Shown piece by piece: positions 2,637-24,571 of a stretch of DNA of 25,952 nucleotides; the first letter of the stretch is position 1; each line of letters starts with the position of its first letter. The notes under the pieces are model-generated. The model had not been told where the DNA came from. It searched no databases and saw only the letters and a program-made list of their open reading frames with translations. A program made the translations under genes and the position numbers. The DNA lies in IMG/VR virus record IMGVR_UViG_3300008266_000406, positions 1 through 25,952 of that record; one strand, 5' to 3'. Source of the stretch: a virus.

Positions 2637-3188
2637 ATGGCAATTGAATCTTTTTATGCTGGTGATAGTGTCAATTTCACCGTAACCTATAGTGATTATT
2701 TAAGTTCAGACTATACTAGTTCTGTTCTCTATATTAATGGCCCATCCCTACTTTCTATTACTGGGGTCGCATCAACACCAACAAACAACCCAGATGACCA
2801 CATAGACAATGCATATCTCTTCTCACTTGCTCCAAGTGGAAGTGCATATCTCAAAGCTGGTGTCTACAATTATTCTGTTCGTGTATCTAGTGGGTCTGTA
2901 TCGTATACCGCAGAAGTCGGTACATTGAATGTATATCAAAATCCAGCCACCGCAGTATCTAAAGAAGCTATCTGTGTTCGTATGTTAGACCTTATTGAGA
3001 AGGCATTACTCAATCAATTGTCAACAGGTGAAGCAGCAGAAAGTATCAGTATTGCAGGTCGTTCCATTTCTATGATGAATCGTCGTGAACTTCTCATTGA
3101 ACGAGCATTCTGGAATAAGGAAAAGCAAATGTTAATCAATGCAAAGAATGGATATTCTGGTATTAAACAAATTGAGGTGATTGTATGA
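2637..3188 (+). CDS. gpW-like head completion protein with an N-terminal beta-sandwich domain
   Basis: 183 residues. The C-terminal 74 residues (about 110-183) follow the pattern of lambda gpW, a 68-residue head-tail connector: an N-terminal helix, then STGEAAESISIAGRSISMMN as a beta hairpin, then a second helix (RRELLIERAFWNKEKQ). gpW plugs the portal after DNA packaging, and this gene lies between terL and the portal gene, exactly where W sits in lambda. Residues 1 to about 105 form an extra domain of alternating beta strands (AGDSVNFTVTYSD, LKAGVYNYSVRVSSG, TAEVGTLNVYQNPA), Ig-like or BppU-like in style. A similar layout appears in the 113-residue protein at 19211. AGGGA stands 5 bases upstream. 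The stop overlaps the portal start (ATGA). The connector assignment is good; the function of the added domain is unknown. Confidence 0.75.
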   Translation: MAIESFYAGDSVNFTVTYSDYLSSDYTSSVLYINGPSLLSITGVASTPTNNPDDHIDNAYLFSLAPSGSAYLKAGVYNYSVRVSSGSVSYTAEVGTLNVYQNPATAVSKEAICVRMLDLIEKALLNQLSTGEAAESISIAGRSISMMNRRELLIERAFWNKEKQMLINAKNGYSGIKQIEVIV

Positions 3189-4792
3189 GTAGATTTACCG
3201 ATTTTCTCTTTGGTAGAAAAGCAGTAGCCAAGTCTACTCCAATCGTCAACCAAAGTAAGACCAACTTACAAAAAGCACATCTCCCAGCACCATCATTACA
3301 TTTCGCATATAGTCGTGGTGTCTATGCTTCGGTCAACAAAGACCTTTTAAATACATTAGAACGCACCCGTGACCTTTCTCGTTATCTTGTAGGGATTGAC
3401 CCATTCCTTCAACGATACCAAGAAGTCATTTCTGTATTTGTCGTTGGTCAAGATGGATTAAAGATTGAACCAGTCATTACCAATAGTAATGGTAAACTCG
3501 CAGAACGCACCAATGCACAAATTCGTCGTGCATGGAATGATTGGTCAGAAGAAGCAACCTACGATACCTTATCATCATTCAACGAAGTAGAACAATTACT
3601 CGTTCGTACATTAGCACGCGATGGTGAAGGTCTTGTTCGCATGATTACTGGTAAGTCAGTAAACAAGTACGGGTTTGCATTACAAGTATTAGACCCAACC
3701 CTCTTGGATGTGAACTACAATACAGTATTGGATAGTAAGGGTAATCCAGAAAGTCAACGCGTTATCATTATGGGTATTGAATTTGATGGTCGTGGTCGTC
3801 CAGTTGCATACCATGTATGGAATCGTTTACCAGCAGACATCAATATGGCACCACGGGTTCGTGAACGCATTCCCGCAGAAGAAATCATTCACATCTTTGA
3901 CAATAGTGTTCCAGGCGCAGTCCGTGCACTTCCGTGGACTACCGCAGTCTTGAATACTGTATCTCGTTTGAATCAATTCTTAGAAGTTCACTTACAAGCA
4001 TGTTCTATTGCAGCAACGACACCATTGGTTATGACCAATAGTGAACCAGATGTGGTAGGAGCAGATGATGTGGCAGTTAGTGGATTACAAAGTCCACAAT
4101 TCAAGCGACCAGAAATCAATTTGGCATATAGTCAAATTTTAGAACTAGACCATGGTAAGAGTTTACAAGCCCTTAATCTTAATTTCCCAACCCAACAGTT
4201 TGAACAAACTGTCAATGCATATCTTAAGAGTATTGCTGCTGGGTTGTTTATTTCTTATTCTACATTAAGTGCTGACATGAGCCAAGGCAATAGTGCCAAT
4301 GTTCGTTTCAGTTCTTTAGTTGAACGGGAACATTTCCAACAAATTCAGCGTTGGTTAATTAAGAGTTTCCATATGGTAGTTTATAAGAAGTGGTTAGAAA
4401 CCGCAATGTTATATGGTTCATTAAAGCTTCCATCAATGAATCCAGAAGATTACTATCAAGTCAACTTCCGTGGTACTAGACATTCCACGATTGACCCATC
4501 AAAAGATATGAAGGCCTATATTGAAGGTATCAATGTTGGTCTATTCACCCGTACACAAGTTTGTGCGGAATTGGGTGGTGACTTCTACGAAAATATTAAA
4601 CAATTAGCAGTGGAAGAAGAATACATTCAGAAGTATGGGGTCAATGTCAGTATGGGTGACCCAAAAGCACAAGATACCGCAAATCAAGTCGCAATTGGTA
4701 CAATACAAGCACCAGACGAACCAAATATCAGTCCAGATGCGGTCAGTGCACAAGAAGTCATCGCAGCTGATGAACAAGCTGGGTTGGACTAA
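3185..4792 (+). CDS. Portal protein, lambda gpB family
   Basis: 535 residues, matching lambda gpB (533). The portal forms the dodecameric ring at one head vertex through which DNA enters and leaves, and to which the neck attaches. Visible family features are an aromatic-basic N-terminal region (about 40-75) with the R-T-R-D-L-S-R motif, AWNDW (116-120), RTLARDGEGLVRM (141-153), LQVLDPTLLD (166-175) and the hallmark GIEFDGRGRPVAYHV (197-211), followed by PAEEIIHIF (230-238). The C-terminal 40 residues are acidic and probably flexible. GAGGTGA sits 4 bases upstream and the start overlaps the previous stop, so expression is likely coupled to the gpW-like gene. In lambda the N-terminus of gpB is trimmed by the capsid protease; here that is only possible by analogy. 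Confidence 0.96.
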   Translation: MSRFTDFLFGRKAVAKSTPIVNQSKTNLQKAHLPAPSLHFAYSRGVYASVNKDLLNTLERTRDLSRYLVGIDPFLQRYQEVISVFVVGQDGLKIEPVITNSNGKLAERTNAQIRRAWNDWSEEATYDTLSSFNEVEQLLVRTLARDGEGLVRMITGKSVNKYGFALQVLDPTLLDVNYNTVLDSKGNPESQRVIIMGIEFDGRGRPVAYHVWNRLPADINMAPRVRERIPAEEIIHIFDNSVPGAVRALPWTTAVLNTVSRLNQFLEVHLQACSIAATTPLVMTNSEPDVVGADDVAVSGLQSPQFKRPEINLAYSQILELDHGKSLQALNLNFPTQQFEQTVNAYLKSIAAGLFISYSTLSADMSQGNSANVRFSSLVEREHFQQIQRWLIKSFHMVVYKKWLETAMLYGSLKLPSMNPEDYYQVNFRGTRHSTIDPSKDMKAYIEGINVGLFTRTQVCAELGGDFYENIKQLAVEEEYIQKYGVNVSMGDPKAQDTANQVAIGTIQAPDEPNISPDAVSAQEVIAADEQAGLD

Positions 4793-4830: not shown

Positions 4831-6918
4831 ATGAAGACATTACCAAAGATTAATAGTCGTTGCCATCGTAGTGTAGAAATTCGTCAACCCCAAGATACAG
4901 AAACGGGGTTGGTGATTGAATTGGCAGCAAGTAGTGATATTCCCTATCGTCGTAACTTTGGGTATGAAACATTACTCCACACAGAAGAAGCAATTGATTA
5001 TAGTAGAGTAGCTGCAGGTTCTTGTCCGTTATTATACAATCATAACAATGACGAATACATTGGTATCGTAGAAAGTGTTAGATTAGATAATGGTCAATTG
5101 CGTGCAGTTGTTCGTTTAAGTAAGAACTCAGATTTTGCTCGTCAAGTATCCGCTGATATTTTGGATGGTATCCTTCGTTCAATTAGTATTGGATACGAAA
5201 TCAACGAAATGGCAGAAGGTGAAGACATTGATGGAATTCCACAATACATCGCTACTCGTTGGACACTATATGAAGTATCAGTAGTAACCACACCAGCAGA
5301 TTATATTAAGGCAGGAATTGGACGCAGTGAAGAACAACCAAATGAGGATACAGATATGAAGAAAAGAGATTTAGCAGCTGTAATGGAGATGCTTCCATCT
5401 CTTTCTGTTGAAGATATGACCGCATTACTTGAAGAAATCTCAGAAGCAGTAAACAATCAAGTAGAAGCTATGGGTCATTCTGAAGAAGAAATGGAAGCAG
5501 TATCCACAGAAATTGCCGAAGAAGTCATGGAAGAAGGTATGGAAGTTGAAAAGACCTATGACGAAATGGGCGATAAAGTTCCATCAAAGGAATATGATTC
5601 ATACGAATCAATTGATGGTGAAGCATCACAAGAAGAAGAACAGATGTTAGAAGGAAAGGCAGGAAAGAAATCGGCTCCAAAAGCCAACTCACGCTCAAAC
5701 ACAGGAGATAAAATGAGCAATGTAAGCAATGGCTCCGTAGGGGCCGACAACACCGTTCGTCTTGCTGAATTAGCAGCTAAGTACGAAAAGAGTGCAGAAC
5801 TTCCAACCTGGATTAAGGAAGGTCGTACTGCAGAAGAAGTCGCATTAGAAATCCTTGATTCACGCTCTAATGCAAAGAAGGCTGGTCCAGCAATCCATGT
5901 AAAGAGTTCAGACAAGCCTGAATTCGCATCAGCTGTTAAGTCTTGGTTACAAGGCAACAACAGTGAACTCGCAGAACGCGGTATTGACCAAGCCCGTGCA
6001 ACTGGTCGCACTGTAACACCAGGAACACTCTACATCCCAACCGATGTAGCAATGATTCGCAGTAGTTTCAACACCCGTGCAGGAACTGCATACAGTAATA
6101 CTGGTCAATATGCAGTTGGTAAGGAATTCTTGACCTTTGAAGAAGCTCTCCGTGAAGGTGCACTTCTTTCTCGCGTAGGTGGTCAAGTTCTTTCATTGAA
6201 CGATGTCGCTTCAATGCCTTACTTCTCAGTTCCAACCGTAGCAACAGCTTCACTTACCGAAACTGCTTCAATCGCAGACAACGAAGTAACTGTTGGTATC
6301 AAGAACTGGACTCCAAATCGTATCGCAGCTCGCTATGTCTTCAGTAACTTGATGACCCGCTTGAACGGCACATACGACTTTGAAGCAGAACTCTACAACG
6401 ACCTTCTTGCAGAATCAGTTCGTGTATTTGACGCACAATGCTGGGGTGGAAGTGGCACCAACGCAATCACTGGTCTTTCCCGTGATACCAACATCACCGC
6501 ATTGAGTCTCACTGGTTCAATGGCATTGGCATCAGCAAGTGCAATGATTACCGAAGTTGCAGCACAAAATGCAAACCTCGCAAACGCACAATTCGTCGCT
6601 GACCACACTGTATACTCACAAATGTTCTCAACCCAAGCATTCGGTGCTGGTTCTGGCATGAGTATCCTTGATGTCATCCAAGCAAGTCACCCAGTTGTTC
6701 GCACTGGATACCTCCCAGAAGTTATCGCAAGTCGCAAGACCATTATGTTCGGTGACTTCAGTAAGGTAACTGCAGCAACCTTCGGTCCAGTTGAAATCAA
6801 GCGTGATGACCTCACCAAGCTACAAACTGGTCAAACTGTCCTCAATCTTGAAATGTTCGCAGATTGTGTGGCACGCCAACCAAAGGCACTTGTACGCTGG
6901 ACAAATGTAACTTACTAA
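4831..6918 (+). CDS. Capsid maturation protease / scaffold / major capsid polyprotein
   Basis: 695 residues joining parts that are usually separate genes. Residues 1 to about 165 are an HK97-type prohead protease: the LLYNHN histidine (H71), the RSISIGY serine (S119) and LYEVSVVTTPAD (E148 region) match the family's His-Ser-Glu arrangement. Residues 176-294 are strongly acidic and helical (EEEMEAVSTEIAEEVMEEG and similar), like a scaffolding delta domain. From residue 295 the chain reads as an HK97-fold capsid protein, with LPTWIKEGRT early, then RATGRTVTPGTLYIPTD and a long folded C-terminus ending QPKALVRWTNVTY. The annotated start has no clear ribosome site, but two in-frame internal ATGs do: codon 176 (5356, GAGG 8 bases before) and codon 295 (5713, AGGAG 5 bases before). 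Separate scaffold and capsid products are therefore plausible, as with nested C/Nu3 in lambda. Codon choice also changes after about 5720 (see findings). Confidence 0.93.
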   Translation: MKTLPKINSRCHRSVEIRQPQDTETGLVIELAASSDIPYRRNFGYETLLHTEEAIDYSRVAAGSCPLLYNHNNDEYIGIVESVRLDNGQLRAVVRLSKNSDFARQVSADILDGILRSISIGYEINEMAEGEDIDGIPQYIATRWTLYEVSVVTTPADYIKAGIGRSEEQPNEDTDMKKRDLAAVMEMLPSLSVEDMTALLEEISEAVNNQVEAMGHSEEEMEAVSTEIAEEVMEEGMEVEKTYDEMGDKVPSKEYDSYESIDGEASQEEEQMLEGKAGKKSAPKANSRSNTGDKMSNVSNGSVGADNTVRLAELAAKYEKSAELPTWIKEGRTAEEVALEILDSRSNAKKAGPAIHVKSSDKPEFASAVKSWLQGNNSELAERGIDQARATGRTVTPGTLYIPTDVAMIRSSFNTRAGTAYSNTGQYAVGKEFLTFEEALREGALLSRVGGQVLSLNDVASMPYFSVPTVATASLTETASIADNEVTVGIKNWTPNRIAARYVFSNLMTRLNGTYDFEAELYNDLLAESVRVFDAQCWGGSGTNAITGLSRDTNITALSLTGSMALASASAMITEVAAQNANLANAQFVADHTVYSQMFSTQAFGAGSGMSILDVIQASHPVVRTGYLPEVIASRKTIMFGDFSKVTAATFGPVEIKRDDLTKLQTGQTVLNLEMFADCVARQPKALVRWTNVTY
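5344..5358 (+). promoter_or_regulatory. Candidate internal ribosome site and start for a scaffold protein
   Basis: GAGG at 5344-5347 lies 8 bases before an in-frame ATG at 5356 (codon 176 of the polyprotein). Translation from it would skip the protease domain and begin at the acidic, helical segment, giving a scaffold-capsid or, after cleavage, a scaffold product. The position is analogous to Nu3 nested in lambda C. The motif is moderate, so use of this start is an inference. Confidence 0.4.
5703..5715 (+). promoter_or_regulatory. Strong internal ribosome site and start for a free major capsid protein
   Basis: AGGAG at 5703-5707 is 5 bases before an in-frame ATG at 5713 (codon 295). This is better than the site at the polyprotein start, which has none. 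Initiation here would give a 401-residue protein, the usual size of an HK97-fold capsid subunit, and would explain how the capsid subunit is made in large excess over the protease. The alternative is that the run is a chance in-frame match and the capsid is released by proteolysis. Confidence 0.5.
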
Positions 6919-6948: not shown

Positions 6949-6990
6949 AAAGGGGGCGGGCGGTTATATCCGTCCGTCCCTTTTGTCTTT
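6949..6990 (+). terminator. Rho-independent terminator after the capsid gene
   Basis: The arm AAAGGGGGCGGGCGG (6949-6963) pairs with CCGTCCGTCCCTTTT (6970-6984) across a 6-base TTATAT loop. All 15 positions pair if three G-U wobbles are allowed. The 3' arm runs directly into a T-rich tail. It is by far the most GC-rich stretch nearby, so it stands out. It would separate abundant capsid messages from the tail genes, with tail transcription supplied by read-through or by an unseen promoter. Confidence 0.85.
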
Positions 6991-8977: not shown

Positions 8978-9262
8978 ATGTCTGTAGAACGCTTTATTAA
9001 GGCAACAGAACCCATCAAAGTTGAATTAAATGGTACAACCTATATGGTCAAACCATTAAGTTTTAAGAATTATATCGCAATTCAACGCGAATTACGAAAT
9101 AGTTTTTCTGATGGGTTATCTATTGACGAAAAAGAAAACGCATACATCGCAGCAATAGAAAAACTTGCGAGAGCATTGGAGTTACCAGTGGATGATGTCC
9201 TAAACGCTGATAATGAATTTATTACCAAACTCGTTGATGTTTTTTTGTTGCAGACGAAGTAG
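8978..9262 (+). CDS. Tail assembly chaperone G
   Basis: 94 residues when read without frameshift. G-type chaperones bind the tape measure and keep it soluble while tube subunits are recruited. The N-terminal strand pair (IKVELNGTTYMVKPLSFKNY) and following helices (KENAYIAAIEKLARALELP, DNEFITKLVDVF) match the usual chaperone layout. TAGGAG lies 6 bases upstream. Near its end the message reads GTT TTT TTG, and the normal frame stops soon after at TAG (9260-9262). The location between tube and tape measure genes is the classic G position. Confidence 0.85.
   Translation: MSVERFIKATEPIKVELNGTTYMVKPLSFKNYIAIQRELRNSFSDGLSIDEKENAYIAAIEKLARALELPVDDVLNADNEFITKLVDVFLLQTK

Positions 9263-19552: not shown

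Positions 19553-24571
<5,019 letters not shown>

Follow-up and report, generated by a model that had tools for sequence, protein, structure and literature searches.

The fused protease-scaffold-capsid gene described here is best read as carrying nested in-frame starts on one message, with predicted products of 695, 520 and 401 aa that would co-assemble and then be trimmed, and we give this reading a probability of roughly three in four. The gene lies in a window of 25,952 nucleotides, which is the whole stretch of viral DNA that was analysed. Two in-frame methionines past the protease are invariant among relatives, the Shine-Dalgarno (SD) sequences ahead of them are under selection at synonymous positions, and codon usage changes abruptly just after the second one (Table 1).

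Table 1. Features of the fused gene and its surroundings (positions in the window)
Feature	Position	Strand	Basis
Fused protease-scaffold-capsid gene	4831..6918	+	Open frame, Pfam S78 and Phage_capsid, PHROG 617
Full-length start, without SD	4831..4833	+	Duplex energy +2.0 kcal/mol
S78 prohead protease domain, residues 60-156	5008..5298	+	Pfam PF04586 (Peptidase_S78)
SD GAGG of internal start 1	5344..5347	+	GAGG-N8-ATG in five lineages, rare Glu codon GAG
M176, internal start 1, for a predicted 520-aa scaffold-capsid chain	5356..5358	+	M176 invariant; family-wide SD here
Acidic, disordered scaffold-like segment, residues 176-294	5356..5712	+	Low pLDDT, most variable part of the protein, C-ending codons 5/15
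SD AGGAG of internal start 2	5704..5708	+	Four freshwater lineages with AGGAG-N5-ATG; L003 with AAGGAG-N9-ATG
M295, internal start 2, for a predicted 401-aa delta-capsid chain, putative main capsid source	5713..5715	+	M295 invariant, codon step downstream, accessible
Delta-like helical domain, ~residues 295-426, presumably cut off by the protease	5713..6108	+	Aligns to helical segment common to all fused relatives
Presumed mature HK97-fold capsid subunit, ~residues 427-695	6109..6915	+	R4C/8gta alignment; PF05065
Strong intrinsic terminator immediately 3' of the capsid gene	6950..6981	+	Terminator scan

Results

An ORF check returned a single open frame of 695 aa, for which the ATG at 4831 is the sole possible start. 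PF05065 (Phage_capsid) matched residues 441-688, and residues 28-695 aligned to HMM positions 27-626 of 626 in PHROG 617, named 'major head protein' (E=1e-56); in the PHROG profile comparison, PHROG 4523 carries the name 'major head and protease protein'. The candidate catalytic residues H71 and S119 are invariant over 12 diverse relatives. The open frame, the Pfam domains and PHROG 617 bear out the first-pass annotation, which had read the frame as an HK97-type protease, an acidic scaffold-like segment and a capsid. The structure model, built from 6 sequences with a mean pLDDT of 41, was used cautiously and for its layout of order and disorder alone: the linker (~152-305, pLDDT 20-50) is predicted to be mostly disordered, and helices are predicted at 307-346, with the best blocks at pLDDT 63-77, so the 401-aa M295 product would start just ahead of the first post-linker predicted helices (307 onward). 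The gene sits in a head module, with a gpA-type terminase (PF05876 and PF20454 at 570-2564), a head-tail joining protein and a lambda-family portal (PF05136 at 3185-4792) upstream of 4831 and a head-closure protein downstream. Further along the window, a slippery heptamer of the classic -1 type (T TTT TTG, 9241-9247) lies near the end of a 94-aa ORF (8978-9262), with the -1 frame open to 9579; it is expected to be the G/GT-type programmed frameshift of a tail-assembly chaperone.

As the first-pass annotation had noticed, the first ATG has no SD and the in-frame ATGs at 5356 and 5713 do, with pairing energies of -6.1 kcal/mol (GAGG, 8-nt spacer) and -7.4 kcal/mol (AGGAG, 5-nt spacer). The mean unpaired probability at M295 is 0.73 versus 0.55, the 90th percentile of internal ATGs, and M176 is also accessible in the window sequence (0.58). 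SD strength by itself was rejected as evidence: among the internal in-frame ATGs of the other window genes, 4/86 (~5%) are preceded by an SD of at least -7.3 strength and 12/86 (~14%) by one of -6.0, and the chance expectation of finding at least one site of -7.3 strength among ~21 internal ATGs is ~60%. That a -7.4 SD is not rare among so many ATGs suits an alternative reading, a single 695-aa precursor delivering protease, scaffold and capsid at 1:1:1, from which the protease frees the capsid and in which the internal SDs are coincidental. It is conservation and the codon step, not SD strength alone, that make the internal sites more than chance.

Scans of viral contigs added relatives of four further lineages, 49-68% identical across the full frame, as well as some fragments. 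The five lineages compared are the window (W), L010, L009, L007/L008 and L003, of which L003 is the most distant and the others are freshwater. Between the two methionines almost no residue is conserved, this segment being the least conserved part of the protein. The SD of site 2 is read as (T/I/S)-G-(D/E) in the freshwater lineages and as K-E, in another codon phase, in L003; the SD was therefore retained there and the encoded residues were not. At site 1 the SD-bearing glutamate is encoded by GAG in 5/5 lineages, and GAG makes up 2/64, 4/41, 2/67, 5/60 and 13/67 of the Glu codons of the respective frames (3-19%); the joint product of these choices is ~1.5e-6 for lineages that share ancestry. 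The homologue alignment proposed in the first-pass annotation for the AGGAG and ATG at 5703-5715 thus spoke for the site, which is kept in five lineages beyond coding need, with its SD phase-shifted in L003. The first ATG is without SD also in L010, L009, L007/L008 and L016, the exception being L003, which has GGAG at its full-length start, so that, judging by sequence, a weak first start is not universal. A G+C-rich hairpin with a T-run 3' of the gene is shared by L010, L009, L007/L008 and L003.

Both internal sites are present wherever the sequence of the relatives covers them, except in L013, which lost the M176 stretch. This incomplete relative (L013:2995-4743) lacks ~42 codons at the protease end (~residues 135-176 of the window protein, M176 included) yet still has the M295 site, with the capsid portion in frame; it could serve as a natural test of the M176 site, unless it reflects misassembly. 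In a near-identical freshwater contig (L001:4414-6324) the fused frame diverges after ~residue 597 into an unrelated tail and downstream head genes are joined too, which might reflect either misassembly or a defective variant.

Codon usage changes within the frame. The share of C-ending codons for Phe, Tyr, His, Asn and Asp is 31% in the protease and 33% in the scaffold segment, then 62% and 71% after M295, the other window genes lying at 18-47%; usage after M295 is of the 'highly expressed' pattern. A changepoint analysis run on synonymous choices only, with 200 synonymous shuffles as the null, placed the change in the window at codon 306, 11 codons past M295, with a likelihood ratio of 56.4 versus a mean of 27.4 and a maximum of 45.5 in the shuffles. 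In the relatives the step falls 12 (L010), 27 (L009), 22 (L007), 28 (L008) and 21 (L003) codons past the aligned M295, which puts it 11-28 codons downstream, well above shuffles, in all six genes. A single codon regime would be expected if all ribosomes traversed the whole frame. Selection for accuracy was rejected as the source of the step: in the pooled freshwater clade, invariant residues differ by domain (C-ending in 6/36 protease versus 82/132 capsid codons, p=1.2e-6), and within the capsid invariant and variable residues are alike (0.62 and 0.64). No comparable step was found in 6/7 other long window genes. The exception is a 1,667-codon gene (19568-24571) with a changepoint near codon 757 (z=9.4), which suggests a mosaic or composite gene.

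The codon step also bears on two other explanations of the internal sites. Were the SD-like motifs pause sites that aid co-translational folding, their position at domain borders would make sense, but pausing would not increase codon adaptation downstream, and the motifs stand at start-like spacing ahead of invariant ATGs, so that we consider this explanation very improbable. A capsid-only product made from a separate shorter mRNA, through an internal promoter or a processing site, would be expected to leave the same codon step and would still require the SD at M295. Against it, a scan for sigma-70-type promoters found no promoter-like sites between 5004 and 5713; it gave three weak sites in the region, fewer than in shuffles, and none in the scaffold segment. 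An internal promoter was rejected on these weak matches, and a shorter message is, on the whole, improbable.

The survey was then widened with relatives of cultured fused phages, giving 181 frames with both domains among the fetched loci, which formed 82 clusters at 80% identity, of which 79 were used; these relatives cannot be treated as statistically independent. Of the ATGs that lie 0-60 codons past the protease, 44% are preceded by an SD at least as strong as -6, compared with 13% of those within the protease itself, 11% in the capsid core and 5% for the linker beyond that stretch. ATGs 0-60 codons past the protease have a mean SD of -5.15 versus -3.74 in synonymous shuffles (p=5.7e-9), while in the rest of the linker the SDs before ATGs are weaker than in shuffles (p=2e-5), a sign of avoidance. 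With clustering at 50% identity (28 clusters) the linker signal is weaker yet significant (p=0.005). These are per-ATG tests, used in place of a per-cluster test of the minimum SD over ATG and GTG, which was diluted. Examples of such sites are AAGGAGGTTGTC-ATG in L183, AAGGAGGACACT-ATG in L131 and CGGAGGACGCA-ATG in phage R4C. Outside the freshwater clade, 12/21 significant codon steps fall within -20 to +60 codons of the internal start (expected 2.8, p=3e-6); some significant steps in the family lie inside the protease, and in a few fused phages (Murka, Alexa and some clusters) the internal site is weak or absent. A genome scan returned a single, distant locus, which lies in a MAG of a Hyellaceae cyanobacterium, and no host was called from it.

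The SD enrichment just past the protease across clusters marks the M176 site as family-wide, and the freshwater clade, as its alignments read, has M176 plus a putative second start, M295, to which the codon step has moved. It is conservation that points to the use of M176 alongside M295. M295 might instead have taken over as the working internal start in the freshwater clade, leaving two products and M176 as a relic of the ancestral site, since the step of this clade is at M295 and not at M176, the single site at the M176 position bears the step elsewhere in the family, and L013 keeps M295 without the M176 stretch. A relic would hardly be expected to keep GAGG-N8-ATG intact in all five lineages, with an uncommon Glu codon, at a site that is accessible in the window sequence, and we regard the loss of M176 function as possible but doubtful. 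Cleavage of a single precursor fares worse, because it predicts neither SD conservation at synonymous positions, nor a codon step at an internal start, nor SD avoidance in the remaining linker, and it would put a protease on each of hundreds of subunits; even with the shortened mature capsid of R4C in its favour, it is a poor candidate as the sole explanation. For this widespread family of tailed phages as a whole, we find it fairly likely that a conserved internal start yields two or more nested products and so sets capsid stoichiometry, and that the freshwater clade gained a second internal start which took over capsid output, making a three-product gene.

Discussion

Our results are in line with nested initiation, with starts of differing strength drawing different amounts of product from one gene. 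The ATG at 4831, lacking an SD, would give little of the 695-aa protease-scaffold-capsid protein, the family-wide M176 start would add some 520-aa scaffold-capsid carrying extra acidic scaffold, and the strong M295 start would supply the bulk product, a 401-aa subunit like HK97 gp5 with its delta domain, which would form most of the shell. Owing to their common capsid fold, all chains could co-assemble, so that a minority of protease-bearing subunits would enter the prohead, and the protease would then cut off everything before ~residue 427 to leave a uniform mature capsid. We infer the three products, their ratio, their co-assembly and the cleavage from the arrangement of the gene and its conserved sites. 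The first-pass annotation had proposed that nested starts, the strongest of them at the capsid, set the output of protease, scaffold and capsid; conservation, the tests at synonymous sites and codon usage support such nested initiation well. The scaffold product that it assigned to the start at 5356 has to be corrected, and with it the idea of a free scaffold, because there is no stop codon from 5356 to 6915 and the capsid is in the same frame as both internal ATGs; what this start would yield is 520 aa of scaffold joined to capsid.

The likely fate of these products can be judged from phage R4C, whose gene is a fused frame of 629 aa and whose solved mature capsid chain (PDB 8gta, 268 aa) is shorter and begins, by alignment, at the equivalent of ~residue 427. 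This start is consistent with a built-in protease that removes everything upstream. None of the solved structures matched the profile of the clade itself; 8gta matched the wider family profile. By this comparison the mature capsid here should be ~269 aa long and start near residue 427, and no N-terminus at 176 or 295 should then be present in virions, even with both starts in use. For the same reason, the search for these N-termini in virions that the first-pass annotation had suggested, and its treatment of a capsid N-terminus cleaved away from residue 295 as a refutation, would not discriminate between the possibilities.

The fusion of protease and capsid raises a problem of stoichiometry, since one protease is encoded for every shell subunit. 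Should the ratio be set by internal starts, annotation as a single product is wrong for a large phage family, cultured phages such as VP882, R4C, ep3 and PPpW-3 included, and heterologous expression or structural work on such proheads must allow for nested products. The codon-usage step could also serve as a general, sequence-only detector of internal initiation in other polyprotein-like phage genes.

The first-pass annotation had set a frame with all three functions apart from the known protease-capsid fusions, but such frames are known too, both from PHROG 617 and from the three-in-one genes described for MD8 (gp5, protease-scaffold-MCP; PMC8508860) and Murka (PMC10892653). Fused-gene relatives comprise MD8 gp5, Murka, VP882, PPpW-3, ep3, R4C and RcCronus, and the record of PPpW-3 annotates its gene as 'major capsid protein and peptidase U35'. 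A few searches of the open-access literature found the fusion described and no internal initiation in the fused family; such an absence is weak evidence, and internal initiation in this family appears to be unreported. The gene resembles the PHROG 617/MD8 type in joining an N-terminal S78 protease, a linker, delta-like helices and an HK97 capsid in one frame, and in following a lambda-family portal and a gpA-type terminase. It differs in that the paper passages and record annotations for that type give one product, and in that, in the freshwater clade, the acidic segment is longer and M295 is added as a second and stronger start, which bears the codon step.

In lambda, the scaffold Nu3 is nested in-frame in the protease gene C, and the capsid E is a separate gene. 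The two systems share a conserved in-frame internal start with an SD past the protease domain and a C-terminally identical product, here predicted; they differ in that the nested product of lambda is a free scaffold, whereas here two internal starts would give nested products that include the capsid. The closest likeness of the predicted 401-aa M295 product is to HK97 gp5, in which the protease removes an N-terminal helical scaffold (delta) domain of ~100-130 aa that is joined to the capsid (PMC10275583). In HK97, however, the gp4 protease and the gp5 capsid are encoded by separate genes, and here they share one frame.
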